A stretch of 36,490 nucleotides of DNA, from assembly GCA_040752915.1 (NCBI GenBank), contig JBFMHB010000031.1, forward strand, positions 1-36,490, given 5' to 3'. Of this stretch, positions 3,496-20,631 are shown one piece after another (within the stretch, counting starts at the first letter, position 1; every line of letters begins with the position of its first letter). The position numbers were made by a program, and so were the translations under genes. This DNA comes from Acidobacteriota bacterium (lineage in GTDB: Bacteria > Acidobacteriota > UBA4820 > DSQY01). The notes under the pieces are model-generated. The model did not search any database and had not been told where the DNA came from. It saw only the letters and a program-made list of their open reading frames with translations.

Positions 3496-4554
3496 GTGTT
3501 CTTTGGAAAGAGCAAAAACCTGTTGGGCCTGGATATCGGTTCCTCCGCCGTGAAGATGGTGGAACTCAAGGATCTGGGCAAGGGCAAAGGCTACCAATTG
3601 AAGGCCTTCGGCATCGAACAGCTACCCGCGGAAGCCATCGTCGGCGGCACGATCATGGATTCCGGTGCCGTGATCGACGCCATCAGCCGCCTGGTGCGCG
3701 ACCGAGGGGTAAAGAACTTCAACGTGGCCACCTCGGTGGACGGCAACTCGGTCATCGTGAAACGCATCTCCATGATGGCGATGAGCGAGGCCGAGCTCAA
3801 CGAGGCCATTCAGTGGGAAGCCGGACAGTACATCCCCTTCGACATCGAGGAGGTGAAGATCGATCACCAGGTCCTCGAGACGGACCCCGCCACGGGAAAC
3901 CTGAGCGTGCTGCTCGTGGCCGTGAAGCGGGACCTCATCGCCGAGTACACCTCCATCCTCGGCCAGGCGGGCCTCAACGCCACCGTCCTCGACCTGGACG
4001 TCTTCAGCATGCAGAACGCCTTCGAGATCAACTACCCCATCCATGGAGGAGAAGTCGCCGCCCTCGTGAACATCGGCGCGAGCACGACCAACATCTGCGT
4101 CCTGAAGGGAGACACCCCCTTGTTCTGGAGGGACATCCAGGCGGGAGGCAACAACTACACGGACACCCTCCAGCGTGAGCTCAACCTCACCTTCAACCAG
4201 GCCGAAGCCCTCAAGAAGGGCGAGACCGTTCAGGGGGTGCGGCCGGAGCAGGCGGCGCCCATCCTCAACGCCATGACCGAGGAGTTCGGAGCGGACTTGA
4301 AGAAGTCCCTCGACTTCTTCAAGGTGACGACGGGGGAGGGCACCATCCACAAGATCGTACTCGCGGGCGGCGGGAGCCAGGTCACCAACCTGGACCGCTA
4401 CCTGAGTCAGTTTTTCGGCGTGCCCGTGGAGGTCATGAACCCCTTCCAGAACGTGACGGTCGACGAGCGGGAGTTCCCCATGGACACCCTGACTCGCCTG
4501 GCCCCGCACTTCGGCGTGGCGGTGGGGCTGGCCTTGCGCAAGATGGGGGATTAG
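3496..4554 (+). CDS. pilM: type IV pilus assembly protein PilM
   Basis: Cytoplasmic actin-like (FtsA-fold) ATP-binding protein of the pilus alignment subcomplex. It binds the N-terminal tail of PilN and connects the motor to the periplasmic PilN/O/P complex. 352 aa, the normal length. It opens FFGKSKNLLGLDIGSSAVKMVEL, the phosphate-1 motif of the family, and ends with the adenosine motif LAGGGSQVTNLDRYL and DTLTRLAPHFGVAVGLALRKMG. The start is a GTG at 3496, preceded by AAAGGGG at 3481-3487. It is the first gene of a nine-gene plus-strand unit; pilN begins on the base after its stop codon. Confidence 0.95.
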   Translation: MFFGKSKNLLGLDIGSSAVKMVELKDLGKGKGYQLKAFGIEQLPAEAIVGGTIMDSGAVIDAISRLVRDRGVKNFNVATSVDGNSVIVKRISMMAMSEAELNEAIQWEAGQYIPFDIEEVKIDHQVLETDPATGNLSVLLVAVKRDLIAEYTSILGQAGLNATVLDLDVFSMQNAFEINYPIHGGEVAALVNIGASTTNICVLKGDTPLFWRDIQAGGNNYTDTLQRELNLTFNQAEALKKGETVQGVRPEQAAPILNAMTEEFGADLKKSLDFFKVTTGEGTIHKIVLAGGGSQVTNLDRYLSQFFGVPVEVMNPFQNVTVDEREFPMDTLTRLAPHFGVAVGLALRKMGD

Positions 4555-5229
4555 ATGATCCGAATCAATCTGCTCAGGGAAGGGCGGGGCACGAAACGGG
4601 GAGGGCCGGGCGGGCCGCCGATGGTGGCCGTGGCGGGCCCCACCGAAGAGGCGCCGCCTTGGGGAATCTACGTTGCCCTCCTCCTGGCCACGGTGGTGGC
4701 CACCGGCGGGTACGGGGCCTGGCTCCTCATGCAGAACCACAGTCTCGCCGTGGAAATCGAAAGGCAGAAGGTGGAGCTGAAGAAGTACGAGGGGGCCCGA
4801 GAAAAAGTCGCCGAGCTGGAAAAGAAAAAGACCGAGTACGCCGCCAAGGTGGATCAGATCAAAGAGCTCAAGGACCAGCAGAGCATCCCCGTGAAGCTCA
4901 TGAACCGCCTCGTGGAGGTGCTCCCCGAGGGCGCCTGGTACAACGCCGTCAAGCAGAACAACCAGACCATCGAGCTGACGGGCGCCGCCAAGAGCATCAA
5001 GACCATCTCGACGCTCTACGACAACCTCGTGGCCATCTCTGAATTCGCCAACGTCCAGCTGGGAGAGGTGCAACAGCAGTCGGGCGCCGAGGAGACGTAC
5101 AGTTATAAGTTGAGCATGAATTACCATCCGGGCGGCTTCAAGCCGAAGGTCGAGGAGGCGAAGCCTCAGGCGACCTCCGCGAGGGCCCGGTCCAAGCCCG
5201 CGTCGGACGACTCCGGCGGGATGGAATAG
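4555..5229 (+). CDS. pilN: type IV pilus assembly protein PilN
   Basis: Bitopic inner-membrane protein of the alignment complex; its cytoplasmic tail docks on PilM and its periplasmic part pairs with PilO. 224 aa. The conserved start MIRINLL is followed by an unusual Gly/Pro-rich stretch (about residues 13-36). A single transmembrane helix follows (about 37-59), then a Lys/Glu-rich coiled coil (about 62-110) and a small ferredoxin-like periplasmic fold. Its ATG immediately follows the pilM stop codon with no spacer. The C-terminal tail past about residue 195 is low-complexity. Function is assigned from the N-terminal motif, topology and gene order. Confidence 0.9.
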   Translation: MIRINLLREGRGTKRGGPGGPPMVAVAGPTEEAPPWGIYVALLLATVVATGGYGAWLLMQNHSLAVEIERQKVELKKYEGAREKVAELEKKKTEYAAKVDQIKELKDQQSIPVKLMNRLVEVLPEGAWYNAVKQNNQTIELTGAAKSIKTISTLYDNLVAISEFANVQLGEVQQQSGAEETYSYKLSMNYHPGGFKPKVEEAKPQATSARARSKPASDDSGGME

Positions 5230-5241
5230 GAGGAGGCGCCC

Positions 5242-5820
5242 ATGGACCGCTTCGCGAAGCTCCCCAAATGGGCCCAGTTGGTGGTCACCCTCCTTTTCTG
5301 CGGGCTCATCTTCCCCGCGACCTGGTTCGTGTTTCTGGCGGACCAGAGAACCACCTTGCAGAGCCGGCGCCAACAGCGCGACGAACTGGAGGGCCAGATC
5401 CAGCAGGGCAAGGAGGCCATGCGTCGCGTGGATGAGCTGAACCGGCAGATCGACCTCATCCGACGCGACCTCGAGGTCCTCAAGTCCATCATCCCGTTGG
5501 ATCCCGAAACCGGAAAGCTCCTGCGCGTCTTTCAGAGCTACGCGCGGGATCAGAACCTGAATATCCTGCGGATCAACCCGACCCCCGTGGCGAAGAGGGA
5601 GCTTTACTCCGAGCAGGCCTACGGGATCGAGGTGGGGGGCGGCTACCACGATCTCGCCCTTTTCTTCGACAAGGTCGCCCACATGCGGCGCATCGTGAAC
5701 ATCACCAACCTGGACATGGCCTCGTCCACGCGCAAGGGGGCGACCATCACGGCCAAGTTCAACTCCGTCGTCTACATGCAGAACCCCGAGGCTTTCCAGG
5801 GGCTGGAGAACAAGCCATGA
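5242..5820 (+). CDS. pilO: type IV pilus assembly protein PilO
   Basis: Inner-membrane partner of PilN; the heterodimer scaffolds PilP and links the cytoplasmic motor to the secretin. 192 aa. The topology is short N-terminus, one transmembrane helix (about residues 11-33), coiled coil (about 38-85) and periplasmic alpha/beta domain. Characteristic PilO features are the segment LKSIIPLDPETGKLLRVFQ and the later GGYHDLALFFDKVAHMRRIVNITNL, which matches the family's fold-defining stretch. GGAGGAG overlapping the end of pilN supports the ATG at 5242. The stop overlaps the pilP start by 4 nt. Confidence 0.93.
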   Translation: MDRFAKLPKWAQLVVTLLFCGLIFPATWFVFLADQRTTLQSRRQQRDELEGQIQQGKEAMRRVDELNRQIDLIRRDLEVLKSIIPLDPETGKLLRVFQSYARDQNLNILRINPTPVAKRELYSEQAYGIEVGGGYHDLALFFDKVAHMRRIVNITNLDMASSTRKGATITAKFNSVVYMQNPEAFQGLENKP

Positions 5821-6404
5821 GACCAGGCACGATCTTCCTCGGCGTGTCGGCCCTGGCGCTGCTGGCCTCGGCCTCCGCGCTCGCCCAGAACCCGGTCAAG
5901 ACCCTCCAGAGGGTGGACTCGACCCTCGCGCCGGCGACGGCGTCTCCCGCGCCGGCCGAACCGGTCCCCCCTCCCCCGGAGGCTTCCCCTTCGGGAGGCC
6001 CGGTGGTCGTCCCCGAGGACAACATGCTCCTGGAGGGCGAGACCCTGTACAAACACAGGTCCGAGCGCGATCCCTTCACGCCCCTCGTTCGCGGCGCGGC
6101 GGGCGCGGCGGGCGACGTGAAGGTGAAGTTCGGGTCCACGGGGCTGGCCCGATTCACGGTGGAATCCTGCGCCCTGGAGGCCATCATCGGCAGCAGCAAG
6201 TCCGTCGTGGCCTGGTTCCAGGGCCCCGACGGCAAGCCCTACAAGGCCGTGGCGGGTGAGCGCTTCGCAGACGGAATCGTCCTCGACGTGAGCTTCACGA
6301 ACGGGGAGGTGACGATCCAGCAGGAGCTGAACGATCCCACCGCCATCAAGCCTTTCCGCAACCTGGTTCTCAAGATCCGGAGCCAAGAAGGGGAGGGACA
6401 ATGA
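5817..6404 (+). CDS. pilP: type IV pilus assembly protein PilP (no lipobox)
   Basis: Periplasmic protein expected to bridge the PilN/PilO dimer and the N0 domain of the PilQ secretin. 195 aa. An N-terminal hydrophobic stretch ends ASALAQ, a plausible signal peptidase I site. A Pro-rich linker follows, with PPPP at residues 51-54. The C-terminal half is a small beta domain starting at YKHRSERDPFTPLV, the usual entry motif of PilP (RDPF). PilP of model species is a lipoprotein, but no Cys follows the signal sequence here, so anchoring would have to be through an uncleaved helix or the partners. It overlaps pilO and pilQ by 4 nt on each side. Confidence 0.87.
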   Translation: MRPGTIFLGVSALALLASASALAQNPVKTLQRVDSTLAPATASPAPAEPVPPPPEASPSGGPVVVPEDNMLLEGETLYKHRSERDPFTPLVRGAAGAAGDVKVKFGSTGLARFTVESCALEAIIGSSKSVVAWFQGPDGKPYKAVAGERFADGIVLDVSFTNGEVTIQQELNDPTAIKPFRNLVLKIRSQEGEGQ

Positions 6405-8866
6405 ACAAGCGCATGGCCCTTATGACGGCGGTTCTCGGTCTCCTCGCCGGGATGGCCGTTCTGGCGGCGGACACGGCGTCCACCGAGCTGAACGTCCTCA
6501 GCGACCTCTTCAGCCAGTCCCAGGACGGCCAAGTCGTGGTGGGCGTGGTGGGGACCTACCCCATCATCGACTACACCTACTACGACTACGATCCCGAGAC
6601 CTTCGTGGTGGACATGGCGGACGTGGACATCTCGCGGCTGCCCAAGACGCTCAACGTGCAGTCCGGGGGCGTGGGTCTCGTCAAAGTGGAATCCATCAGC
6701 CAGGGCAAGGGCAGGGCCCTCGCCAAGCTGGAAATCCACAAGGCCTACCTCTCCAAGTGCCTGGTCTTCACCGAGGGAACCAAGCTCATGGTGAAGGTCG
6801 TGGGCGCGGATCAGGCCCCTCCGGCTCCGCCGGCCCCGTCCGCCGCGTCCGAATCCGCCTCCGCCGCGAGCCCGGCCTCCGCCCCCCCGGCGCCTCCTCC
6901 GGCGCCTCCGGCCGAACCGGTCCGCGAGGGCACGCGCCTCATGGGTGTGCGGGTTGCCCAGGACGGCTCGTCCGTGGGCATCGAGTCGGACGGAACAGCC
7001 AAGTTCAAGTACTTCACCATGGGCGGACCGGACCGGATCGTGGTGGATCTTTATGGGATCCAGCGGGGCAAGGTTCCGGGGCAGATCCCCGGGGCAGGGG
7101 ACATCGAGAAGGTGCGGGTGGCCCTCCTTCAGGCGAGTCCTCTGGTGACCCGGGTGGTCCTGGACATGAAGAAGCCGCTCAAGCCCGTGGCGGTCAGCGC
7201 GGATGGACCGGTGGTGCGGGTGGTCCTGGACGAAATGGCCCTCGATGCCGCCCCCGAAGCGGCCGCCGCCCCGCCGAAGGCCGAGGCGCCTCCCGCGTCT
7301 GAACCGGCCGCCCAGCCGGTTTCCTCCGAGACGGCACCGGCGGAACCGGTCTCCGCCTCCCCGCCGCCTGTCGCGGAGATGGCCCAGGCTCCCACCGAAC
7401 CGGCCGCGGAGACCCTCGACGACGTCAAAGTGGATCTCTCCCCCATCAGCCCCGGCTCCAGCCGGGAGTTCAAGGGATACGAGGACCTGTTCGTGGCGGA
7501 GGACGCCACGGCCTCGCCCGCCGAGGGCAAGACCCTCGTAGCCGGAGGCGTCCCCCTCTCCTTCAAGGAGAAGACCATCTCCGGCGGAGGTATGAAGTAT
7601 TCCGGCGAGCCCATCTCCATGAGCCTCAAGGACGCGGACGTGAAGGACGTGATGCGCGTCTTCCACGACATCTCCAAACTCAACTTCGTCGTCCACCCCT
7701 CGGTTCAGGGCAAGGTCACGGTGGACCTCGAGAACGTCCCTTGGGACCAGGCCATGGACATCGTCCTGAAAAACAACGGCCTGGACTACGTGTACGAGAA
7801 CAACGTGATCTGGGTGGCCCCGGCCTCCGAGATTGCCCGGAAGTTCGCCGAGCAGCAGCGGATGCAGAAAGAGAAGCTGCTGGCGGAGGACCCCATCACC
7901 TTCACCAAGAGGCTGTCCTACGCAAAGGCCCAGCGCATGGAGGGCATCGCCCAGCGTTTCCTGAGCGAGCGGGGCTCCATCATCATCGACGAGCGGACGA
8001 ACACCCTGATCATCCAGGAAGTTCCCTCCAAGAAGGCGGGCCTGGTCAAGCTGATCGACTCCCTGGACACGGCCACGCCGCAGGTCCTCATCGAGGCCCG
8101 GATCGTCGAATCGAACGTCACCTGGACCCAGAGTTTCGGAATCACCTGGAGCGGCAACTGGTACACGGGGATGGACGCCTCGGGCAACACGGTCACAACG
8201 CGGGGCGGCACCACCGGTTCCGCTTCCTCCAACATCTACTCCCTGCACAACTTCAAGAACCAGTCCGGATGGCCCAACTTCGGCACGGGCGACTTCGCCG
8301 TGACCCTCCCCCCCACGGCGTCCAACGGCTTCATCGACCTCGTTCTGGGGAACATCACCGGGTCGTTCTTCCTGGACGTCCGGCTCGCCGCCCTCGAGAA
8401 CACGGGGCGCGCGCGTGTTTTGTCCGCCCCCCGCGTGGTCACTCAGGACAACGAGAAGGCCACCATCGAGTCCGGCCGACAGATCCCCATCCGGGTGGCC
8501 ACCACCGACAAGATCTCGGTCATTTTCGTCAATGCGACCCTCAAGCTGGACGTGACGCCCCAGATCAGCGCCGACGGGAACGTGAATATGACCGTGGACA
8601 TCACCAATGACTCGGTGGACTTCGCCAACGCCGAACCGGGCAACCCGCCCCCGATCATCAAGAAGGAGGCCAAGACCGTGCTGAAGGTGCGCGACGGTCA
8701 GACGGCGGTCATCGGCGGCGTGTTCGTGACCAACGAGGGCATCTCCCAGAACGGCCTTCCCTTCCTCTCCAAGATCCCGGTCCTGGGCTGGCTGTTCAAG
8801 AACCGCACGAAGACCCGGACGAACGACGAACTCCTGATCTTCCTCACGCCCAAGATCGTCAGGTAG
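6401..8866 (+). CDS. pilQ: type IV pilus secretin PilQ
   Basis: Outer-membrane channel through which the pilus passes. 821 aa, long because of linkers. The order is: signal peptide (1-22); AMIN domain 1 (about 28-135), which binds peptidoglycan in this family; Pro/Ala linker with PPP at 165-167; AMIN domain 2 (about 178-278); second Pro/Ala linker with PPP at 321-323; STN/N0 domain (about 399-478); NolW/N1 domain (about 500-565). The secretin beta-barrel domain follows (about 640-820), with ENTGRARVLSAPRV, GRQIPIRV, VRDGQTAVIGG and the end motif SKIPVLGWLFK, NDELLIFLTPKIV. The start overlaps the pilP stop (ATGA). Confidence 0.96.
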   Translation: MNKRMALMTAVLGLLAGMAVLAADTASTELNVLSDLFSQSQDGQVVVGVVGTYPIIDYTYYDYDPETFVVDMADVDISRLPKTLNVQSGGVGLVKVESISQGKGRALAKLEIHKAYLSKCLVFTEGTKLMVKVVGADQAPPAPPAPSAASESASAASPASAPPAPPPAPPAEPVREGTRLMGVRVAQDGSSVGIESDGTAKFKYFTMGGPDRIVVDLYGIQRGKVPGQIPGAGDIEKVRVALLQASPLVTRVVLDMKKPLKPVAVSADGPVVRVVLDEMALDAAPEAAAAPPKAEAPPASEPAAQPVSSETAPAEPVSASPPPVAEMAQAPTEPAAETLDDVKVDLSPISPGSSREFKGYEDLFVAEDATASPAEGKTLVAGGVPLSFKEKTISGGGMKYSGEPISMSLKDADVKDVMRVFHDISKLNFVVHPSVQGKVTVDLENVPWDQAMDIVLKNNGLDYVYENNVIWVAPASEIARKFAEQQRMQKEKLLAEDPITFTKRLSYAKAQRMEGIAQRFLSERGSIIIDERTNTLIIQEVPSKKAGLVKLIDSLDTATPQVLIEARIVESNVTWTQSFGITWSGNWYTGMDASGNTVTTRGGTTGSASSNIYSLHNFKNQSGWPNFGTGDFAVTLPPTASNGFIDLVLGNITGSFFLDVRLAALENTGRARVLSAPRVVTQDNEKATIESGRQIPIRVATTDKISVIFVNATLKLDVTPQISADGNVNMTVDITNDSVDFANAEPGNPPPIIKKEAKTVLKVRDGQTAVIGGVFVTNEGISQNGLPFLSKIPVLGWLFKNRTKTRTNDELLIFLTPKIVR

Positions 8867-9406: not shown

Positions 9407-10602
9407 TGGCGAGCGGACCCGCCGAACTCGAATCCGAGGTCCAGCGCGATCCGAAGATGCGCCGGTTCTACGAGTTGGCGCGGGAGTACCAGCGGCTCGG
9501 CCGTATCGAAGAAGCCGTGGTCCTCTGCGAAAAGGGCCTCCAACTGAACCCGAACCAGTGGCAGGCCCGGAATCTGCTGGCCCAGATCTTTCTCGCCAAG
9601 GGCCGCTTCGACGAGGCGAGGGTGCAGGTGGAGCGGGTCCTTCTGGCCCTCCCGGACAACATCCCCGCCAACCACCTCGCGGCGGACCTGTACTACTCCC
9701 TGGGGGACAAGGCCCGCGCCCTTCGCCACTACCAAGTCGTGGACCTCTTTGACCCCGGAAGGGCCAACGTGGCGGAGCGGATTCAGGAGCTGGCCGCCGA
9801 GACGCCTGCTCCGGAAGAGACGGCCGCGGAATCCGCCCCTGCGGCCGGCGAGGAAGCCCCGGGGCCGCCTCTGGAGGAGCCGCCCGCCGAATCCGTCCCT
9901 GCGGCCGATGGGGAGGCCCGGGAGTCGCTCTCCCCCGCCGTTTCCGAGGAACCGGCCGTGGAGGTCGGGCTCCAGGCGGAGGCTCAAACCGCGACGGAAC
10001 CGGTCGGCGCCCAGGTGTTCGAAGAGGTATCGAAGCCGGAGGATTGGGGTAGCGAAGGAGGTCAGGAGAGCGACCTCCTGGAAGTCCTACCCTCCGAGCC
10101 CACGCCCTCCGTGGAGGTGGCTCCGCTTTCAGAGCAGGCGGAATCCTGGGCCGACGTGGCCCCCGAGCCGGAATCCTGTGAGCGCGAGGCCCTTGTCGAA
10201 AACCCGCCCGGGGAGGACACGGACCGGGTGGAGACCCTCCAGGAGGGCGACGACACCCAGGAAGCCCCCACGCCTCCGGACAGTCCAGACGGACTGGGCC
10301 TTTCACCGGAACCCGATCCGTCCGTTCCCGGGCCGGCCTTCAGCACGGTCACCCTGGCCCAGTTGTACGAGAGCCAGGGATACCCGGAAAAGGCGGTGGA
10401 GGTCTACCAGCGGATCCTGCTCAAGGAGCCGGACAACGCCGACGTTCGGGAGCGGATCCGGGGACTCAAGCGGAGGATGGCGGGGGAGGTCCCCGAAGCC
10501 CCGGCCGTCCAGGAGGAGGACGTGCGCAAGGCCGTCCGGCAGAAAAGGATCGCCGTGCTGCAGAACTGGCTCACCCGGGTGAGGGAGGCCTCCCATGTTT
10601 AG
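9406..10602 (+). CDS. TPR-repeat protein with long acidic linker
   Basis: 398 aa, no signal peptide or membrane helix, so probably cytoplasmic. TPR-like helical pairs occupy about residues 15-128 (FYELAREYQRLGRIEEAVVLCEKGL; ARNLLAQIFLAKGRFDEARVQVERVL; LAADLYYSLGDKARALRHYQVV). A low-complexity Glu/Pro/Ala/Ser linker runs to about 308. A further TPR follows (TLAQLYESQGYPEKAVEVYQRILLKEP) and a basic C-terminal helix. TPRs mediate protein-protein contacts; the partner is not known. It starts on the last base of the lipoprotein stop (TGATG) and overlaps the roadblock gene by 8 nt, so those two products are probably made in fixed ratio and may interact. Confidence 0.85.
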   Translation: MASGPAELESEVQRDPKMRRFYELAREYQRLGRIEEAVVLCEKGLQLNPNQWQARNLLAQIFLAKGRFDEARVQVERVLLALPDNIPANHLAADLYYSLGDKARALRHYQVVDLFDPGRANVAERIQELAAETPAPEETAAESAPAAGEEAPGPPLEEPPAESVPAADGEARESLSPAVSEEPAVEVGLQAEAQTATEPVGAQVFEEVSKPEDWGSEGGQESDLLEVLPSEPTPSVEVAPLSEQAESWADVAPEPESCEREALVENPPGEDTDRVETLQEGDDTQEAPTPPDSPDGLGLSPEPDPSVPGPAFSTVTLAQLYESQGYPEKAVEVYQRILLKEPDNADVRERIRGLKRRMAGEVPEAPAVQEEDVRKAVRQKRIAVLQNWLTRVREASHV

Positions 10603-10948
10603 CCCCCTGTTCAAGAAACTGCGCGAGGACCTCCCGGGCTTTCGGGCGGTGGCCGTGGTGGGAGACGACGGCATCGAAGTGGACCGGTTCGTCTTGGAGG
10701 ACCTGCCCCACGAGGTGCTGAGCGCGGAAATGAACGGGGTCTTGAAGACCTTGAGGCGCCTTCGGGGGGAGATCGCGATGGGCCCCATCCGGGAGGTGGT
10801 GATTCGGACCGAGGCGGAGAACATCCTCTTGTGCTCCCTGTCGGAGGGTCTCTTCATCCTCGTGGTCACGGACCCCGCTACGGCCACCGGCCGGGCCCGG
10901 TTCGCCATCCAGCGACTTGCGCACGAGTTTCAAAACGTCCTAAAATAA
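10595..10948 (+). CDS. roadblock/LC7-domain protein
   Basis: 117 aa single-domain protein. The pattern AVAVVGDDGIEVDRFV, a middle helix (AEMNGVLKTLRRLRGEI), paired strands (REVVIRTEAENILLCSLSEGLFILVVT) and a C-terminal helix is that of the roadblock/LC7 fold. Bacterial members such as MglB act on Ras-like MglA GTPases that set pilus polarity; others regulate other small GTPases. No MglA-like GTPase is in this window, so MglB function is not claimed. The gene overlaps the TPR gene by 8 nt and is followed 18 nt later by efp. The location inside a pilus operon makes a link to motility plausible. Confidence 0.83.
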   Translation: MFSPLFKKLREDLPGFRAVAVVGDDGIEVDRFVLEDLPHEVLSAEMNGVLKTLRRLRGEIAMGPIREVVIRTEAENILLCSLSEGLFILVVTDPATATGRARFAIQRLAHEFQNVLK

Positions 10949-10966
10949 GGGTTCGGAGGGAACCCC

Positions 10967-11530
10967 ATGGGTGTGATCACCAGCAACCAGATCCGCAAGG
11001 GCGTCAAACTGCTCATCGACGGCGACGCGTACGAGGTCGTGGACGCGGACCACGTGAAGCCGGGGAAGGGCTCGGCCTTCACGCGCGCCAAGGTGCGGAA
11101 CCTCAGGACCGGCCAGGTTCTCGAGAAAACCGTCAAGGCGGGGGACAAGGTCGAGACGGCCGAGACGCAGGAAAGCCGCATGCAGTTCCTCTACAAGGAA
11201 GGCGCCGACTACCATTTCATGGACCAGACGACCTTCGAGCAGATCGTCATCCCGCAGGACGTTCTCGGCGACGCCGTCAAGTACCTCACGGAGAACCTGG
11301 AAATCAGCGTCCTCCTCCACGACGGAGAACCTCTGGGCGTGGACCTTCCGAACTTCGTGACCCTCACGATCGAGGAGACGGACCCCGGGTTCAAGGGCGA
11401 CACCGTTTCCGGGGGCAAGCCGGCCCGGTGCAACACGGGGGCCGTGGTCAGCGTGCCCTTCCATCTCAATCCGGGGGACCGCATCGTGGTCGATACCCGG
11501 GACGGCAGCTACCGAGAAAAGGTCGGCTGA
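10967..11530 (+). CDS. efp: translation elongation factor P
   Basis: EF-P binds between the P and E sites of the ribosome and rescues stalling at consecutive prolines. 187 aa, the full three-domain length: KOW-like N domain and two OB domains ending GDRIVVDTRDGSYREKVG. The tip loop reads HVKPGKGSAF with Lys at position 34, the residue that is beta-lysylated by EpmA/EpmB in enterobacteria. It is not the Arg of rhamnosylated EF-Ps. No epmA or epmB is in the window. The GGAGG site at about 10954 supports the ATG at 10967. It is the last gene of the pil unit, before the terminator at 11557. Confidence 0.96.
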   Translation: MGVITSNQIRKGVKLLIDGDAYEVVDADHVKPGKGSAFTRAKVRNLRTGQVLEKTVKAGDKVETAETQESRMQFLYKEGADYHFMDQTTFEQIVIPQDVLGDAVKYLTENLEISVLLHDGEPLGVDLPNFVTLTIEETDPGFKGDTVSGGKPARCNTGAVVSVPFHLNPGDRIVVDTRDGSYREKVG

Positions 11531-11556
11531 TCCGGCCGAGACGTGCCAAAACGGAA

Positions 11557-11581
11557 AGCCGGGGGCCTGGAGCCCCCGGCT
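11557..11581. terminator. bidirectional intrinsic terminator between efp and the DUF1573 gene
   Basis: A perfect 10-bp G/C-rich stem (11557-11566 with 11572-11581) closes a 5-nt loop. On the minus strand the stem is followed by TTTCCGTTTT, a good U-rich tail for the DUF1573 gene. On the plus strand the tail (TCTCGCTTCTT) is weaker but usable for efp. It sits in the 76-bp gap between the two convergent stops. Confidence 0.75.
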
Positions 11582-11606
11582 CTCGCTTCTTGCCCGGAAT
11601 GGCTCT

Positions 11607-12722
11607 TTAAAAGATCTTCCCCCGGATCGGAACGGTGATGGGGCCCTTGCTGGTATCGATCGTGAGGGCGCCGTCGAGGTTCCCGACTTCCAGGGGCGGC
11701 ACGAGCTTCAACTTGACGCTGTAGCGCTGGTTGGGCGTGATGGTCTGGACCTCGGACGTCAGGTTCTTCAGGTTCGACGTGACGTTGTGGATCTGCAGCT
11801 CCGGTCCCATCTCGAAAGCCACCGTGACGGTCTTGTTCAGGTTGATGTCCTCCGGGTGCTCGTTCACGTAGCTGTGGTTCAGGCCCGAGTAAACCACCTG
11901 GGGGGGATACACCGTGAGGGGATCGCGGATGGTGCCGAAGAGGTTCAGGTTGAGCTTGTCCACCTTGGGGTGAGAGGTCGCCAAGACGAAGCGCCCGTTG
12001 ATGGGCCCGACGGCGTGGTCGGCGGGCAGGACCACCTTGAAGGTCGCGGATTTCTTGTCCTCCGCCATCTTGATGTCCCATTGGAGGGCGGCGTCGTCGG
12101 CCTGGACGGATGTGACCTCGAAGGGCGTCCCGTCCTCCGATGCGATCGTGAAGGTCTTTTCCTGGGATTGCCCCTTGTACACGAGGCCGAGCTGCTGGTT
12201 CTCCGAGGGCTGGACGCTCAGGATGGACTTCACCACGGCCTTCACGCCCAGCTGAAAGTTCGAGAGCTTCGGGTCGGAGGTGACGACGTTGATGGTCTTG
12301 TGGATGGGGCCCGAGAAGGCGGCCGTGCTGACGCTGGCCGTGATCTTGCCCGTTTTCCCGGGCTCGATCTTTCGGTCGTATTCCGTCACCGTGCATCCGC
12401 ACGCGGCGTGGACCCGGGAGATCTCCAGAGGCCCCCTGCCCCGGTTCTCGATGACGAAGTCGTGCTTGATGACCGAACCGCGGCTCACCGTGCCGGCGTC
12501 GAAGGTCATCTCGGGCACCACGGCCTCGGGGGGATCCACCGCCGGGGCCTGACCCGACTCCGCGGGAGCGGGTTTCTCTTGCCGCGGCGATTGGATCTCG
12601 GACTGAGGCGGGAGGGGCTCGGTAATCTTGGTCGGATTCGCTTCCTGGGCGATCGCGGCGGTTCCGGCGATCACCCCCCCGACAAGGATTAGGGCGGACA
12701 GAACGGTGCGGAAACCTTTCAT
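11607..12722 (-). CDS. exported DUF1573-family protein
   Basis: 371 aa with a signal peptide (residues 1-25, ending AAIAQ) and a Pro-rich linker. A DUF1573/ASH-like beta-sandwich follows: FDAGTVSRGSVIKHDFVIENRGRGPLEISR, the hallmark CGCT (HAACGCTV) and EPGKTGKITASV. Two more immunoglobulin-like segments fill the C-terminal part (about residues 170-371). Predicted periplasmic or surface; the biochemical role of the family is not established. AGGAGG lies 7-8 bases before the ATG. It is the last gene of the minus-strand unit, 29 nt after nadK. Confidence 0.85.
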   Translation of the reverse strand: MKGFRTVLSALILVGGVIAGTAAIAQEANPTKITEPLPPQSEIQSPRQEKPAPAESGQAPAVDPPEAVVPEMTFDAGTVSRGSVIKHDFVIENRGRGPLEISRVHAACGCTVTEYDRKIEPGKTGKITASVSTAAFSGPIHKTINVVTSDPKLSNFQLGVKAVVKSILSVQPSENQQLGLVYKGQSQEKTFTIASEDGTPFEVTSVQADDAALQWDIKMAEDKKSATFKVVLPADHAVGPINGRFVLATSHPKVDKLNLNLFGTIRDPLTVYPPQVVYSGLNHSYVNEHPEDINLNKTVTVAFEMGPELQIHNVTSNLKNLTSEVQTITPNQRYSVKLKLVPPLEVGNLDGALTIDTSKGPITVPIRGKIF

Positions 12723-15585: not shown

Positions 15586-16182
15586 TCACTCCGACGTGAC
15601 GACGAACGCGCCCGAAAACCCGGCGCGCTTCAGGTCCTGGAGCGCTTTCTCGGCGGCCTTCCTGTCCTGGAATCCGGGGATGAGCACCTTGTGACGCCCG
15701 CCCTGGGAGGCCACCTGGGCGCCGTATCCCATCGCCTTCAGGCGCCCCGCGAGTTCCCGCGCGTTGGCGGGCGTCCCGAAGGCTCCGAGCTGGATCGAAA
15801 CTCCGGCCGCCCTGGCGGGCTTCTCGACGGGACGCGTCTCGGTCGGGGAGGGGGGCGGCGTGGGGACGGGAGCGGGGATGGGCGCGGATGGCGAGGCTTC
15901 TGGAACGGAGCGCGTGGGTGCGGGGAACGGATCCTCCGGGGTGGCGGGGCTCTCCGGAAGCGCGTCACGATCCTTCGGGTCCGCCGCGGCGGACTCCTGA
16001 ACGAAAGGACGGCGCTCCACGAGAGATTCTTGGATCGGCTTGGTCTCTTGGACCCGGTCCGAGGAGGGGCGTGGGGTGAACAGCCAGGAAGCCGCCGCCA
16101 CGACAAAGGCCAGGGCCACCGAGCCGGCGCCGATCCACAAGACCTGCCTCCAGGGAACCGAACGGAATCCGGCCCGATTCAT
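15586..16182 (-). CDS. membrane-anchored SPOR-domain protein
   Basis: 198 aa. One N-terminal transmembrane helix (about residues 14-35) is followed by a Pro/Glu/Ser-rich periplasmic linker containing PPP. A C-terminal SPOR domain (about 127-196, VSIQLGAFGTPANARELAGRLKAMGYGAQV, ending GFSGAFVV) completes it. SPOR domains bind glycan strands lacking stem peptides at the septum, so a cell-envelope or division role is expected. The ATG has GGAG 7 bases upstream and overlaps the DUF4388 gene stop by 4 nt. The exact FtsN- or DedD-like identity cannot be assigned. Confidence 0.85.
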   Translation of the reverse strand: MNRAGFRSVPWRQVLWIGAGSVALAFVVAAASWLFTPRPSSDRVQETKPIQESLVERRPFVQESAAADPKDRDALPESPATPEDPFPAPTRSVPEASPSAPIPAPVPTPPPSPTETRPVEKPARAAGVSIQLGAFGTPANARELAGRLKAMGYGAQVASQGGRHKVLIPGFQDRKAAEKALQDLKRAGFSGAFVVTSE

Positions 16183-17291
16183 GGAGCGTCTCCGGCGGCG
16201 GAACGCGCGTTCCGCCGAATGTAGGCCAGCACACGCTGATGGCCCTCGGTGGAGAGGTGCTGCTGTGAGGCGAGGACGAAGGCGTACAGGGTCTCCTCAA
16301 GGAAGGCCACGAGGCGATCGTATCTCTCCTCTTCCGGAAAGGACCGGAGGTTCCACAGGACCAGGTCCACGTCGATCTTGCCGAAACGGACGAGGTCCGT
16401 CTGTCCGTCGGCCAGGCGCGGATGGGAGGACAGGAGGCCGAGATAGAGTTCCTGAAAGGCGTCCTCCGAGCGTTCGGCGGGCTCTATCTGGGAATGCGCG
16501 TAGGAAAACAGGTCGTTGTATCGCTCCAGGAGGGGCTCGAAGTCGTCCGGGGTGGGCTTCCGGCGAGGACCCTCCGCGGGCACCCGCTCCAGCAGGCCCA
16601 GCGTCAAGAAAATCCAGAGTTGCCGGTAGGTCTGGAAGGCCGGGAGATAACTGGCGTCCACGATGGACGAAACGCTCATTCCCGCCTTGGTCAGCGCGAG
16701 GATGTGTTCGTCCTCGGAAGTCATGTCCAGCTCGGCGACGAAGGAAGGGAGGTCCCGGACGCGGGAAAGGCGCGTGGAGGGGTCGCCCACCGCCCTGTAG
16801 ATTTGACTCCAGGCGCCGATCCTCTGCATCCCCTTGTAGACGAGGATCGGAATGTCCAGGGAGAGAGTGACCATCTCCAGCGTGGAGAAGGGGGCGAGCC
16901 CCAGGCTGTACGTTCCGCAGCGGAGTTCGAAGAGGGAGAAGGCGATGTCGTACAGGTTCTGGGTCACCCCTTCGACCACTTCCTCGGGCCCGAGGGCGCC
17001 CAGGTCCACGAGCACCTGGTGGACGCTCCGGCCGCCCCCCGTCGCCTCGCGCGCGCGGAGGTAGTGGGGGAGGCTCAGGAGGCCCCTCCGCAAGAGGGCC
17101 TCCAGGAGGCCGTCGTCGGGGTCCGTCGAGGAGGCGTAGACCACGGATCCTTCGCTGAGGTACAGGGACTTGTTCCAGGTCCCGTCCCCGAGCGTCAGGA
17201 TCCCCGTCTCCCGCTCCCGGTACAGGGACATGAGGAGGATGGGAAGGCTGATGTCGGAGAGGCTACCGTTGAGTGTGATCTGATCGCTCAT
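16179..17291 (-). CDS. DUF4388 (PATAN-type) domain protein
   Basis: 370 aa, no signal peptide. The N-terminal about 110 residues match DUF4388: LNGSLSDISLPILLMSLYRERETGILTL, KSLYLSEGSVVYASSTDPDDGL and a helical LSLPHYLRAREA with RSVHQVLVDLGAL. This module appears fused to or beside response-regulator and GTPase genes in Cyanobacteria, Myxococcota and Acidobacteriota, and is thought to be a signalling adaptor. The rest is alpha-helical and unrecognised. It starts 7 nt after the GGDEF gene stop with no strong ribosome-binding site, so it is probably translated by coupling. That ties it functionally to the cyclic-dinucleotide enzyme. Confidence 0.82.
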   Translation of the reverse strand: MSDQITLNGSLSDISLPILLMSLYRERETGILTLGDGTWNKSLYLSEGSVVYASSTDPDDGLLEALLRRGLLSLPHYLRAREATGGGRSVHQVLVDLGALGPEEVVEGVTQNLYDIAFSLFELRCGTYSLGLAPFSTLEMVTLSLDIPILVYKGMQRIGAWSQIYRAVGDPSTRLSRVRDLPSFVAELDMTSEDEHILALTKAGMSVSSIVDASYLPAFQTYRQLWIFLTLGLLERVPAEGPRRKPTPDDFEPLLERYNDLFSYAHSQIEPAERSEDAFQELYLGLLSSHPRLADGQTDLVRFGKIDVDLVLWNLRSFPEEERYDRLVAFLEETLYAFVLASQQHLSTEGHQRVLAYIRRNARSAAGDAP

Positions 17292-17298
17292 GGAAGGC

Positions 17299-18348
17299 TC
17301 AGGGGAACCGCTTGAGGGGACGGGCCACCTGGATGTCGTTCTTGGTCTGGCTCTTGATCCGGTACATGGCCTCGTCGGCCCTCTTGATGAGGTCCTCCTT
17401 GGTCAGGGCGTGGGCCGGATAGGAGGAGAGGCCGAAGGACCCCGTGATCTCGATCCCTCCGGTCTCCTCCAGGAGAAAGGGCGTCGAGGCGAGTCGCTGG
17501 CGGATTCGCTCGGCCACCTCCAGCGCTCCCTCCCAGGGCGTTTCCGGAAGCACGATGCAGAACTCGTCTCCGCCGTACCGGATGACCTTGTCGATGGATC
17601 GGACCGCGTTCATGATGCGCGCCGCGGCCTCCTGGAGAGTCCGGCTACCCATGGCGTGCCCGAACCGGTTGTTGACCTCTCGAAGGCCGTCCAGGTCGAG
17701 GAAGATGAGGGAAAGCGGGTTGTTGTACCGCCTGGCGCGGTCCATTTCCTCGGCGAGGTAATCCTCGAAAAAACGACGGTTGAAGGCCAGGGTGAGGTCG
17801 TCCTTGGTGATGAGCTCGTTCATGCGGCGGGCCGTCAGGGCGTTCTTGATGGCGAAGGAAAAGTCCGGTAGAGCCCGTTCCAGCAACCGGAAGCCCTCCG
17901 GATTCAAGTAGGTGGATTCGTGGCGGTCCTCCCGGGCGGCCAGAAGGATGAGGCCCGCGTAGTCGTACACGAGCTGGATGGGAAAGAGGGCCAGGCACCC
18001 GATGGCGGCACCCTCCTCGATGGCCGGTGGACGGTCGCTGGTGCTGGGGCCGAAGGTCTTGAACTTGGGAATCATGTCGCGGATCAGGGCTTCCACGTCC
18101 GAGCGCGTCAGGCCGAACCGATCCGCGGTGTGGCGGGCGGGGGTGAACCCGGCGCGGAAGATCCGCTCCACATAGTGGCCCTTTTCGCCCAGGAGCATGA
18201 TCACGCCGTAGTCCGCCGACAAGTGATTCAGGAGGGAGTTCAGGATCTCCTCGGCGACGGTCTTCAACTCGAAGGACCGGAAGGTCCGGGCCAGGTCCCG
18301 GTACACTTCCAGCTCGAGTCCCGGAGGCAGTCTGCGGGCGGGCTTCAC
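17299..18348 (-). CDS. GAF-GGDEF dinucleotide cyclase with Hypr-type Ser signature
   Basis: 349 aa, soluble. A GAF-like sensor occupies about residues 15-170. A GGDEF domain follows (about 180-345). Catalytic features are complete: metal ligands D218 and D220 (FLDLD), N226, and GGDEF at 259-263. An I-site RxxD (R250-D253) sits five residues before it, suggesting product inhibition. The residue equivalent to PleD Asp344, which contacts the guanine, is Ser235 (GHAMGS; codon AGC, two changes from Asp GAC). Ser here is the reported marker of Hypr GGDEFs that make 3',3'-cGAMP. The substitution is seen; the product is inferred. The start is GTG at 18348, with its ribosome-binding site inside a hairpin. 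Confidence 0.9.
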   Translation of the reverse strand: MKPARRLPPGLELEVYRDLARTFRSFELKTVAEEILNSLLNHLSADYGVIMLLGEKGHYVERIFRAGFTPARHTADRFGLTRSDVEALIRDMIPKFKTFGPSTSDRPPAIEEGAAIGCLALFPIQLVYDYAGLILLAAREDRHESTYLNPEGFRLLERALPDFSFAIKNALTARRMNELITKDDLTLAFNRRFFEDYLAEEMDRARRYNNPLSLIFLDLDGLREVNNRFGHAMGSRTLQEAAARIMNAVRSIDKVIRYGGDEFCIVLPETPWEGALEVAERIRQRLASTPFLLEETGGIEITGSFGLSSYPAHALTKEDLIKRADEAMYRIKSQTKNDIQVARPLKRFP

Positions 18349-18352
18349 ACGT

Positions 18353-18378
18353 CACCCCTCCCCGTCCGGGGAGGGGTG
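18353..18378 (-). promoter_or_regulatory. 11-bp hairpin sequestering the GGDEF gene ribosome-binding site
   Basis: On the minus strand CACCCCTCCCC (18378-18368) and GGGGAGGGGTG (18363-18353) pair perfectly over 11 bp with a 4-nt loop. The 3' arm contains the only Shine-Dalgarno-like sequence of the GGDEF gene, and the GTG start lies 4 nt beyond the stem. No U-run follows, so it is not a standard terminator. A competing 6-bp stem (18381-18386 with 18366-18371) would disrupt it. Confidence 0.6.
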
Positions 18379-18436: not shown

Positions 18437-19201
18437 CTATGCCTTGTCTCGTCCCTTCAGCAGGCCGCCCAGGAACTCCACGGGAACCGGGAAGACGATC
18501 GTCGAGGCGTTCTCGGCGCTGATCTGCGTGAGCGTCTGAAGGTACCTCAGCTGCATGGTAATGGGATTCTGGGCCATGATCTCGGCGGCGTTGGCGAGGG
18601 TCTGGGAGGCCTGGAACTCGCCGTCGGCGTTGATGATCTTGGCCCGCTTTTCCCGCTCCGCCTGCGCTTGAAGGGCCATGGCGCGCTGCATGTCCTGGGG
18701 GAGGTCCACCTGTTTGATGGCCACCTGCGTCACCTTCACGCCCCAAGGGTCCGTGTGCTGGTCGATGACTTCCTGGAGCTCCTGGCTCAGCTTCTCGCGC
18801 TCGGAGAGGAGTTCGTCCAGGCTGGCCTGCCCCAGGATGGAGCGCAGGGTGGTCTGGGAGAGTTGGGAGGTCGCGTAAATGTAATTTTCCACCTGGAGGA
18901 TGGCCCTCAGAGGGTCCACCGCCCGGAAGTAGACCACCGCGTTGACTTTCACCGAGACGTTGTCCTTGGTGATGATGTCCTGCGGCGGGACGTCGAGGAC
19001 GATGGTCCGGAGGGCCACGCGCACGATCCGGTCAAAGGGCTTGAACACGAAAATGAGCCCCGGACCCTTGGGCTGGGGAAGGACGCGCCCCAGGCGAAAA
19101 ATGACGCCCCGCTCGTATTCGTTCAGGATGTTGATGCAGGAGAAGAGCCAGCCCAGGAAGATGACGACGACGGCGACCACGGGAAAACTGAGCGGCGGCA
19201 T
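18437..19201 (-). CDS. stomatin/prohibitin (SPFH/Band 7) family protein
   Basis: 254 aa. One N-terminal transmembrane helix (about residues 6-26) is followed by an SPFH domain with [45 protein letters not shown] and a C-terminal coiled coil rich in Ala/Gln/Glu ([13 protein letters not shown]). Such proteins assemble into membrane microdomain rings and are usually paired with NfeD proteases, as here: the NfeD gene ends 2 nt upstream. The ATG at 19201 has GGGAGGG about six bases upstream; the longer frame to 19297 lies inside nfeD. It is not HflK/HflC-like. Confidence 0.92.
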
Positions 19202-19203
19202 GC

Positions 19204-20580
19204 TTACCCTCCCTCTTCGAGGGGGGCGACCCGAAGGGTCATCCCCTCGCGACCGATGACTCGGATCTTGCTTCCGGCCTCCACGGGCCGGTCGCACACG
19301 GCGTTCCAGTACTCGCCGAACAGGAAGACCTTTCCAGGCGCCGGGGGGGTGATCCTCTCCCGCACGACACCCTCCATGCCGACCATGCCCTCTTCCCCCG
19401 TGACGACGGGATTTCTGAACGCCCGGACCGCCAGGGTCACGAGGAACAAGAGGATGGCCGCAAAAACCAGGACGATGGGGAGAACGACGAGCAGGGACAC
19501 TTTCAACTCCGGAATAGGGCTGTTCCTGTACAGCAACAGGCTTCCCACGAGGAGGGACACGACCCCTCCGGCGCCCAGAATACCATAGGAGGCGACCTTG
19601 AGCTCCAGGAGGAGGAAGGCGATGCCCAGCAGAATCAGCAGCAGACCCACGGCGTTGATGGGAAGGAGCTGGGTGGACATGGCGAAGAGCAGGATGCAGA
19701 TCCCCCCCGCCACTCCGGGGAGGATCAGCCCGGGCGCCTTGAATTCGGCGTAGAGACCGATGACCCCCACCAGGAGCAGGACGAGGGTCAGGTTGGGATT
19801 CGCCAGCCCGGAGAAGAGCCGCTGGCGGAGGGTCGGAAGAAGGTCCCTGACCTCGGGGGTCTTCCCCAGGGTCAGGTTCACCTCCGTCCCGTCGAACCGG
19901 CGGAGGGGGCGCGACTCCAGGTAGGCGAAAACCTCCTCCTCCCCCCTGGCCACGAGTTCGATGGCCCCCTGGGCCATGGCTTCCTTTTCCGTCAGGGAGA
20001 CGCTCTCCCTCAGCATCTTCTCGTAGACTTCCGGGCTCCTCCCCCGGTGTTCCGCCAGGGTTCGGGCGTGGGCCGACAAGTCGTTCAGGATCTTGTCCAG
20101 CATGATTTCCTCGCCCGTGGGGCGGGAAGGGGGCTCGCGCCCCTCCTTGTCTCTGCCTTCTCCGGGGGACTTGGGAGGGGCGGTGGGGAGATTGAAGGGC
20201 AGGGCGCTCACGGGGTGGGCCGAGCCGATGGTTGTGCCCGGCGCCATGGCGATGAGATCGCAGGAGAGGGCTACGAGCGCCCCGCCCGAAGCGGCCCGGG
20301 CGTTGACGGGGCTCACGTAGGCCACCACGGGAACAGGGGATTGAAGGATGGCCCTCTGAATCTCCTCCACGGAGCTCACGAAGCCCCCCGGCGTGTCGAT
20401 GACGAGAAGGACGACATCGGCCTTCTGGGCGGCCGCCTCCGAAAGGGCCCGGAGCACGTACTCCTCGGTCACCTTGTGAATGGCGCCCTCCAGGCGGATG
20501 CGGGCCACGCCGCCGGCGGCTGCGAAAACAGGGGCCATCAAGAGGGAGACGGACACCAGCAGGCGGAGGAATGTCCTCAT
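19204..20580 (-). CDS. NfeD-type membrane serine protease (ClpP-class), stomatin partner
   Basis: 458 aa. A signal or anchor helix (about residues 4-22) precedes a ClpP-fold protease domain with DTPGG and ARAASGG (nucleophile S98). The likely general-base K163 lies in LDKILNDL. Both positions are inferred from the archaeal PH1510-N Ser/Lys dyad. Four hydrophobic helices (about 255-400) and a C-terminal OB-fold NfeD domain ([28 protein letters not shown]) follow. A Pro/Gly/Glu-rich insert of about 30 residues separates Ser from Lys. The ATG at 20580 was chosen because GAGG lies 6 bases upstream; longer versions run into the promoter, where the TTG at 20631 is part of the -35 box. Confidence 0.92.
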
Positions 20581-20601
20581 GGCAGGCCTCATCTGCCCCC
20601 G

Positions 20602-20631
20602 ATTATCGGGCGCCTTCCGGAGACCTGTCAA
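20602..20631 (-). promoter_or_regulatory. sigma-70-type promoter of the nfeD-stomatin unit
   Basis: On the minus strand a consensus TTGACA (20626-20631) and GATAAT (20602-20607, 5 of 6) are separated by 18 bp. Transcription should begin near 20595, leaving a leader of about 15 nt before the ATG at 20580. It lies in the 106-bp gap downstream of the glycosyltransferase gene. No terminator for the upstream unit is evident in that gap. Confidence 0.75.

Follow-up and report, generated by a model that had tools for sequence, protein, structure and literature searches.

The locus considered here raises the question of which cyclic dinucleotide is made by a GGDEF enzyme that carries Ser at the position selecting the base. 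Such hybrid promiscuous (Hypr) enzymes are an already known kind, but they have been studied in few bacteria and their in vivo roles are mutually unrelated: metal respiration in Geobacter and gliding exit from prey in Bdellovibrio. The window, i.e. the whole stretch of DNA analyzed (36,490 nucleotides), comes from an Acidobacteriota bacterium. A sequence-only reading had proposed that a GAF-GGDEF protein encoded there may make cGAMP, or mixed dinucleotides, in a piliated bacterium. The last point is supported by genes for PilM, PilN, PilO, and a secretin (PilQ) on the same contig. These type IV pilus genes occupy 3496-8866, together with a possible pilP, and are followed by TPR and Roadblock/LC7 genes (10595-10948). 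The gene of interest, its neighbors, and its diagnostic positions are as follows.

19204-20631, minus strand: NfeD protein, opens the conserved block (NfeD Pfam domains; conserved upstream of SPFH in relatives)
18437-19201, minus strand: SPFH/Band 7 (stomatin-type) protein, upstream of GGDEF (Pfam PF01145, 6e-35; the ORF would also allow a start at 19297)
17299-18348, minus strand: GGDEF protein of the Hypr lineage, Arg type, with the selectivity Ser (349 aa, GTG start, TGA stop; from the ORF and its translation)
17815-18273, minus strand: N-terminal sensor region, GAF-like, residues ~26-178 (AlphaFold secondary structure; GAF_2 matches in relatives only)
17338-17805, minus strand: GGDEF catalytic domain, residues 182-337 (Pfam PF00990, 7e-42)
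17776-17778, minus strand: Arg191 codon CGT, cross-dimer position, GmGacA Tyr304 (FNRR/FNYR alignment; Arg conserved in the clade; role from PMC6456294)
17644-17646, minus strand: Ser235 codon AGC, base-selectivity position, PleD Asp344 and GmGacA Ser348 (gap-free alignments; codon read)
17590-17601, minus strand: I-site RSID, residues 250-253 (distance to GGDEF equals that of PleD RAID)
17560-17574, minus strand: GGDEF motif, residues 259-263, with central Asp (alignment and reading in relatives)
16179-17291, minus strand: DUF4388 (PATAN-type) protein, downstream (Pfam PF14332, 1e-13; starts seven bases past the GGDEF stop)
15586-16182, minus strand: SPOR-domain protein, after DUF4388 (Pfam PF05036, 2e-16; position conserved in the order)

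GGDEF is the sole Pfam domain in the 349-aa protein, and the GAF-GGDEF label has only indirect support. Although a Pfam GAF search of the protein itself gave no match, GAF_2 was matched in four of 23 relatives (best 6e-14), and the AlphaFold model (pLDDT 83.5) displays a GAF-like order of α and β elements ahead of a linker helix. An orthologue was found in all 12 relatives searched from the same family and order. The best named protein matches, 63-71% identical, come from Acidobacteria MAGs and Thermoanaerobaculum-like MAGs, which places the source close to Thermoanaerobaculaceae. Before the GTG start there is a perfect 10-bp GC-rich inverted repeat (18354-18377), which overlaps the likely ribosome-binding site. 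The 11-bp hairpin predicted at the same coordinates was rejected as a regulatory element (single genome copy, folding z-score of -1.0), and it was not seen by eye in the intergenic sequence of relatives.

As assessed by phmmer against the PDB, the top match of the protein is GmGacA (6d9m) with 123 bits, and PleD scores 106 bits. Ser235 aligns with Ser348 in GacA and Asp344 in PleD, and the motif region is gap-free in both alignments, reading VNNRFGHAMGS in our protein, VNDTHGHLVGS in GacA, and INDTFGHDIGD in PleD. The placement of Ser235 at the selectivity position, originally made by eye, thus stood when checked against both proteins. Equally correct was the statement that the GGDEF motif, the RxxD I-site, and the metal ligand (Asp218) are intact. 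The protein therefore displays the set of features by which Hypr enzymes are recognized, i.e. an intact GGDEF domain with its metal Asp, Ser at the site of PleD Asp344, and Asp centering the GGDEF motif. In natural Ser/Thr enzymes this motif is always GGDE(F/Y), and Ser combined with GGEEF is inactive (PMC6456294). Judged by these sequence features, the protein is a genuine member of the Hypr lineage, of an Arg-type variant.

Within the family and the order, every orthologue has Ser235, and the residue is retained across a clade that spans the phylum. The AGC codon, whose distance of two changes from GAC had been taken to make a sequencing slip unlikely, is one of six found at this position in 80 distinct sequences (AGC 57, TCG 8, TCC 5, AGT 5, TCA 4, and TCT 1). 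Because ~80 distinct relatives write this Ser with both AGY and TCN codons, the residue is under selection.

To place the protein within its family, we read residues 191 and 235 in relatives from 80 named contigs and ~65 genomes of the phylum. All Ser-bearing relatives seen have GGDEF or GGDEY, and two types can be distinguished. One, to which our protein belongs, combines Ser with Arg at 191, which is invariant or nearly so in this clade, and usually has no Asp in the 'ND' pair. The other, which includes GacA, combines Ser with Ser, Ala, Thr, Tyr, Gly, or Val at 191 and keeps 'ND'. In a tree built after removing the three diagnostic columns and dropping long branches, one branch (89/90) has all 58 Ser/Gly domains, GmGacA among them, on the same side. 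The 38 Arg+Ser domains, those of Holophagae included, together form one clade (89/96). Earlier 100-row trees recovered both subgroups, but placed Holophagae apart and gave conflicting support for the joint branch, so that a single origin of Ser in GGDEF domains is only moderately supported by these sequences. At residues 226-227 (17668-17673), the Arg-type clade usually swaps the Asp of 'ND' for Asn, Ser, Thr, or Glu.

The sequence-only reading took no account of Arg191, a second determinant of the product. An Arg at this cross-dimer position is present in 94% of predicted diguanylate cyclases, where it stacks on the base of the partner subunit, and is replaced by Tyr304 in GacA (PMC6456294). 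The cGAMP-dominant subgroup of Hypr enzymes is marked by a non-Arg residue here, and our protein has Arg. Natural Hypr enzymes with Ser and Arg, Cabther_A1065 and Ddes1475, make more c-di-GMP, the Y304R change shifts GacA toward c-di-GMP, and a D-to-S mutant of GSU3350 makes c-di-GMP only (PMC6456294). The replacement of Ser by Asp converts GacA and Bd0367 into diguanylate cyclases (PMC6456294, PMC9140294). Taken together, Arg191, the Y304R variant, the Ser+Arg enzymes, and GSU3350 indicate that a main product of cGAMP cannot be predicted from Ser alone. The predicted product, cGAMP or a mixture, retains in its favor Ser, the Asp of GGDEF, kinship with GacA, and the tree (89/90), whereas Arg191 weakens the case for cGAMP dominance. 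The original wording ("cGAMP, or mixed dinucleotides"), with its caveat about c-di-GMP, covers the outcome that we judge most likely from the sequence.

Since the two natural Ser+Arg enzymes favor c-di-GMP, a mixed or c-di-GMP-leaning product is, by analogy, more probable than a signal devoted to cGAMP. Our best reading, to which we give about an even chance of being right, is that of a mixed c-di-GMP/cGAMP synthase working at an SPFH assembly. A plain diguanylate cyclase, in which Ser235 would be tolerated beside the short Asp of GGDEF while Arg191 enforces guanine, would make c-di-GMP as sole product. The GSU3350 mutant, which remained active purely as a diguanylate cyclase (PMC6456294), indicates that Ser with GGDEF is compatible with such an activity; Arg191 is what the large majority of diguanylate cyclases have at this position, and no cGAMP-type riboswitch was seen in the genome or order. 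However, a neutral change would not be expected to persist without exception in a deep clade and in both codon families, and the natural Ser+Arg enzymes are reported as Hypr with more, not exclusive, c-di-GMP (PMC6456294), which leaves this explanation rather unlikely.

It is distinctly less probable that other residues offset Arg191 and that the enzyme, like GacA and Bd0367, makes chiefly cGAMP. The selectivity Ser itself, the switch of both those enzymes to diguanylate cyclases when it is changed to Asp, and the fact that GacA is the nearest solved relative all speak for this, but Arg191 is present, the equivalent Y304R change pushes GacA toward c-di-GMP, and the genome already has a paralogue of the GacA type whose selectivity position is Ser. 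A GGDEF domain without catalytic activity, serving as a nucleotide receptor or as a scaffold partner of SPFH, would fit the usual absence of the 'ND' Asp in the Arg-type clade (VNN, VNS, VNT, or VNE). It is nonetheless highly improbable, considering that GGDEF, Asp218, Asn226, and the Arg and Asp of the I-site are invariant in the aligned relatives, unlike in degenerate GGDEF receptors.

For the mixed synthase, we infer the following mode of action. The protein would be an active Hypr-lineage homodimer, equipped with a GAF-like sensor domain, and would take both GTP and ATP. Ser235 stands where the guanine-enforcing Asp was, so that adenine could enter, and Arg191 would cross the dimer and stack on the partner's base, so that guanine would still be favored. 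The product would most likely be a mixture, with c-di-GMP as the major and cGAMP as a real but smaller component, subject to feedback via the RSID I-site. Being encoded in one gene block with NfeD and SPFH, the enzyme probably acts at an SPFH membrane assembly and reports on the state of the envelope.

The gene order at the locus (NfeD, SPFH, GGDEF, DUF4388, SPOR) is kept throughout the bacterium's own order, as far as contigs extend. NfeD and SPFH, the most conserved neighbors, had gone unremarked in the sequence-only reading. Among 35 distinct Arg-type loci whose flanks were long enough, 28 have them directly upstream (29 of 36 counting a repeat, L185 = L025), and the SPFH link is absent in the other seven. 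None of 28 loci of the GacA type has them there; because loci were picked by similarity to the Ser235 protein, these proportions describe that sample, not the phylum. There is one strong SPFH copy in the source genome, and SPFH was found in 49 of 60 genomes of the phylum. When 20 SPFH loci were inspected, almost all of them in genomes that lack a strong match to the Arg type, none had a GGDEF gene beside SPFH. Gene adjacency does not prove that the enzyme interacts with SPFH or NfeD. Holophagae (L038-L097, e.g. L096 from Geothrix fermentans) have divergent Arg+Ser GGDEF proteins outside the NfeD-SPFH block, several of them near dnaJ/dnaK-like genes.

The DUF4388 protein had been suggested as part of the output. 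Its adjacency is real and is conserved downstream of GGDEF in the order, but it is less general than that of NfeD-SPFH: roughly half the Arg-type loci have DUF4388 after GGDEF, i.e. 15 by profile plus L020, L025, and L137, which were added separately as their gene overlap is above the limit of the profile count. The DUF4388 family has a tandem motif that resembles the c-di-GMP-binding MshEN/GSPII domain, and residues 58-112 of its profile match the domains of this kind in PilF, PilB, and MshE (1e-8 to 0.015). The two MshEN motifs with their key glycines (RLGxx...G...Q) are not found in our copy, which reads GLLE and RSVH versus RLGE in relatives; its orthologues retain much of the RLG pattern. 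An MshEN-type receptor was therefore rejected here, the likeness being one of family only, and the loss of these glycines makes a receptor role doubtful in the source species. A fold search with the model of this protein returned nothing below an E value of 0.001. MshEN domains bind c-di-GMP with an affinity of 0.5 μM, and cGAMP weakly (0.33 mM) (PMC5013675).

GEMM riboswitches, which had been put forward as a means of detecting a cGAMP output, gave no support: searches for GEMM-I (RF01051) came up empty both in the genome (E 1) and in the order (13 genomes, E 0.01), and such riboswitches were rejected as an output of the Ser235 enzyme. Of the few GEMM-I elements elsewhere in the phylum, those with a matchable core resemble the c-di-GMP type, as judged by eye on the differences between GEMM-Ia and GEMM-Ib. 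The genome encodes eight PilZ domains and ~eight HD-GYP domains.

Ser occupies the selectivity position in two of the 17 GGDEF domains of the genome. The second Ser-GGDEF is encoded on contig C38 (~10837-11859; L181, gene end ~6555). It clusters with GmGacA, within the group that is sister to the Arg-type clade, and shares with our protein the equivalent of Ser235 and the GGDEF motif. It differs in having Ser for Arg191, an intact 'ND', and mreB directly downstream instead of the SPFH block. This paralogue is a better candidate for a cGAMP-dominant synthase than the Arg191 enzyme. Downstream mreB on the same strand is found in all 28 distinct GacA-type acidobacterial loci of the first sample (32 of 32 rows, with four repeats), and in 26 of 30 loci of a sample drawn with an independent query.

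Comparison with characterized enzymes sets the Arg type apart. GacA (GSU1658/Gmet_1914) shares the selectivity Ser, the Asn base contact, GGDEF with its Asp, and the I-site, but has Tyr at the cross-dimer position, keeps 'ND', and has a Rec-containing N terminus. Its Geobacterales homologues have Tyr, His, Gln, or Ala at the cross-dimer site and adjoin neither SPFH nor mreB. PleD shares the GGDEF fold, the RxxD I-site, and Arg at the cross-dimer position, but has Asp344 for Ser235 and GGEEF for GGDEF. Two comparisons rely on published descriptions. Cabther_A1065 of Chloracidobacterium, which is likewise acidobacterial, and Ddes1475 have the same Ser and Arg pair (PMC6456294), and Bd0367 of Bdellovibrio shares the selectivity Ser and an intact I-site but differs in making mainly cGAMP in vitro (PMC9140294).

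A search of the open-access literature found no link of GGDEF or Hypr proteins to NfeD/SPFH or mreB. Measured against that literature, two features appear from these genomes to be new: an Arg-type clade that spans the phylum and has an NfeD-SPFH block, and, in its sister group, the linkage to mreB. A phylum-wide clade with Ser and the canonical Arg is a natural case in which the two determinants of specificity are separated, and it would offer a test of how GGDEF enzymes change product. The constant neighborhoods provide a first hypothesis, membrane-domain and cell-shape control, for Acidobacteriota. It is possible, although we hold this only tentatively, that in this phylum two envelope scaffolds are each coupled to one of two sister lineages of synthases with a mixed product (cGAMP and c-di-GMP), NfeD-SPFH to the Arg type and MreB to the GacA type, whose gene precedes mreB. 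If true, cGAMP signaling would serve envelope and cell shape in Acidobacteriota, and the Arg type would preserve an evolutionary intermediate in which the change from Asp to Ser preceded the loss of Arg. In mreB-linked or related acidobacterial GGDEF proteins, the selectivity position is also naturally Gly (L159 and L165), Ala (L267), or Thr (L274).
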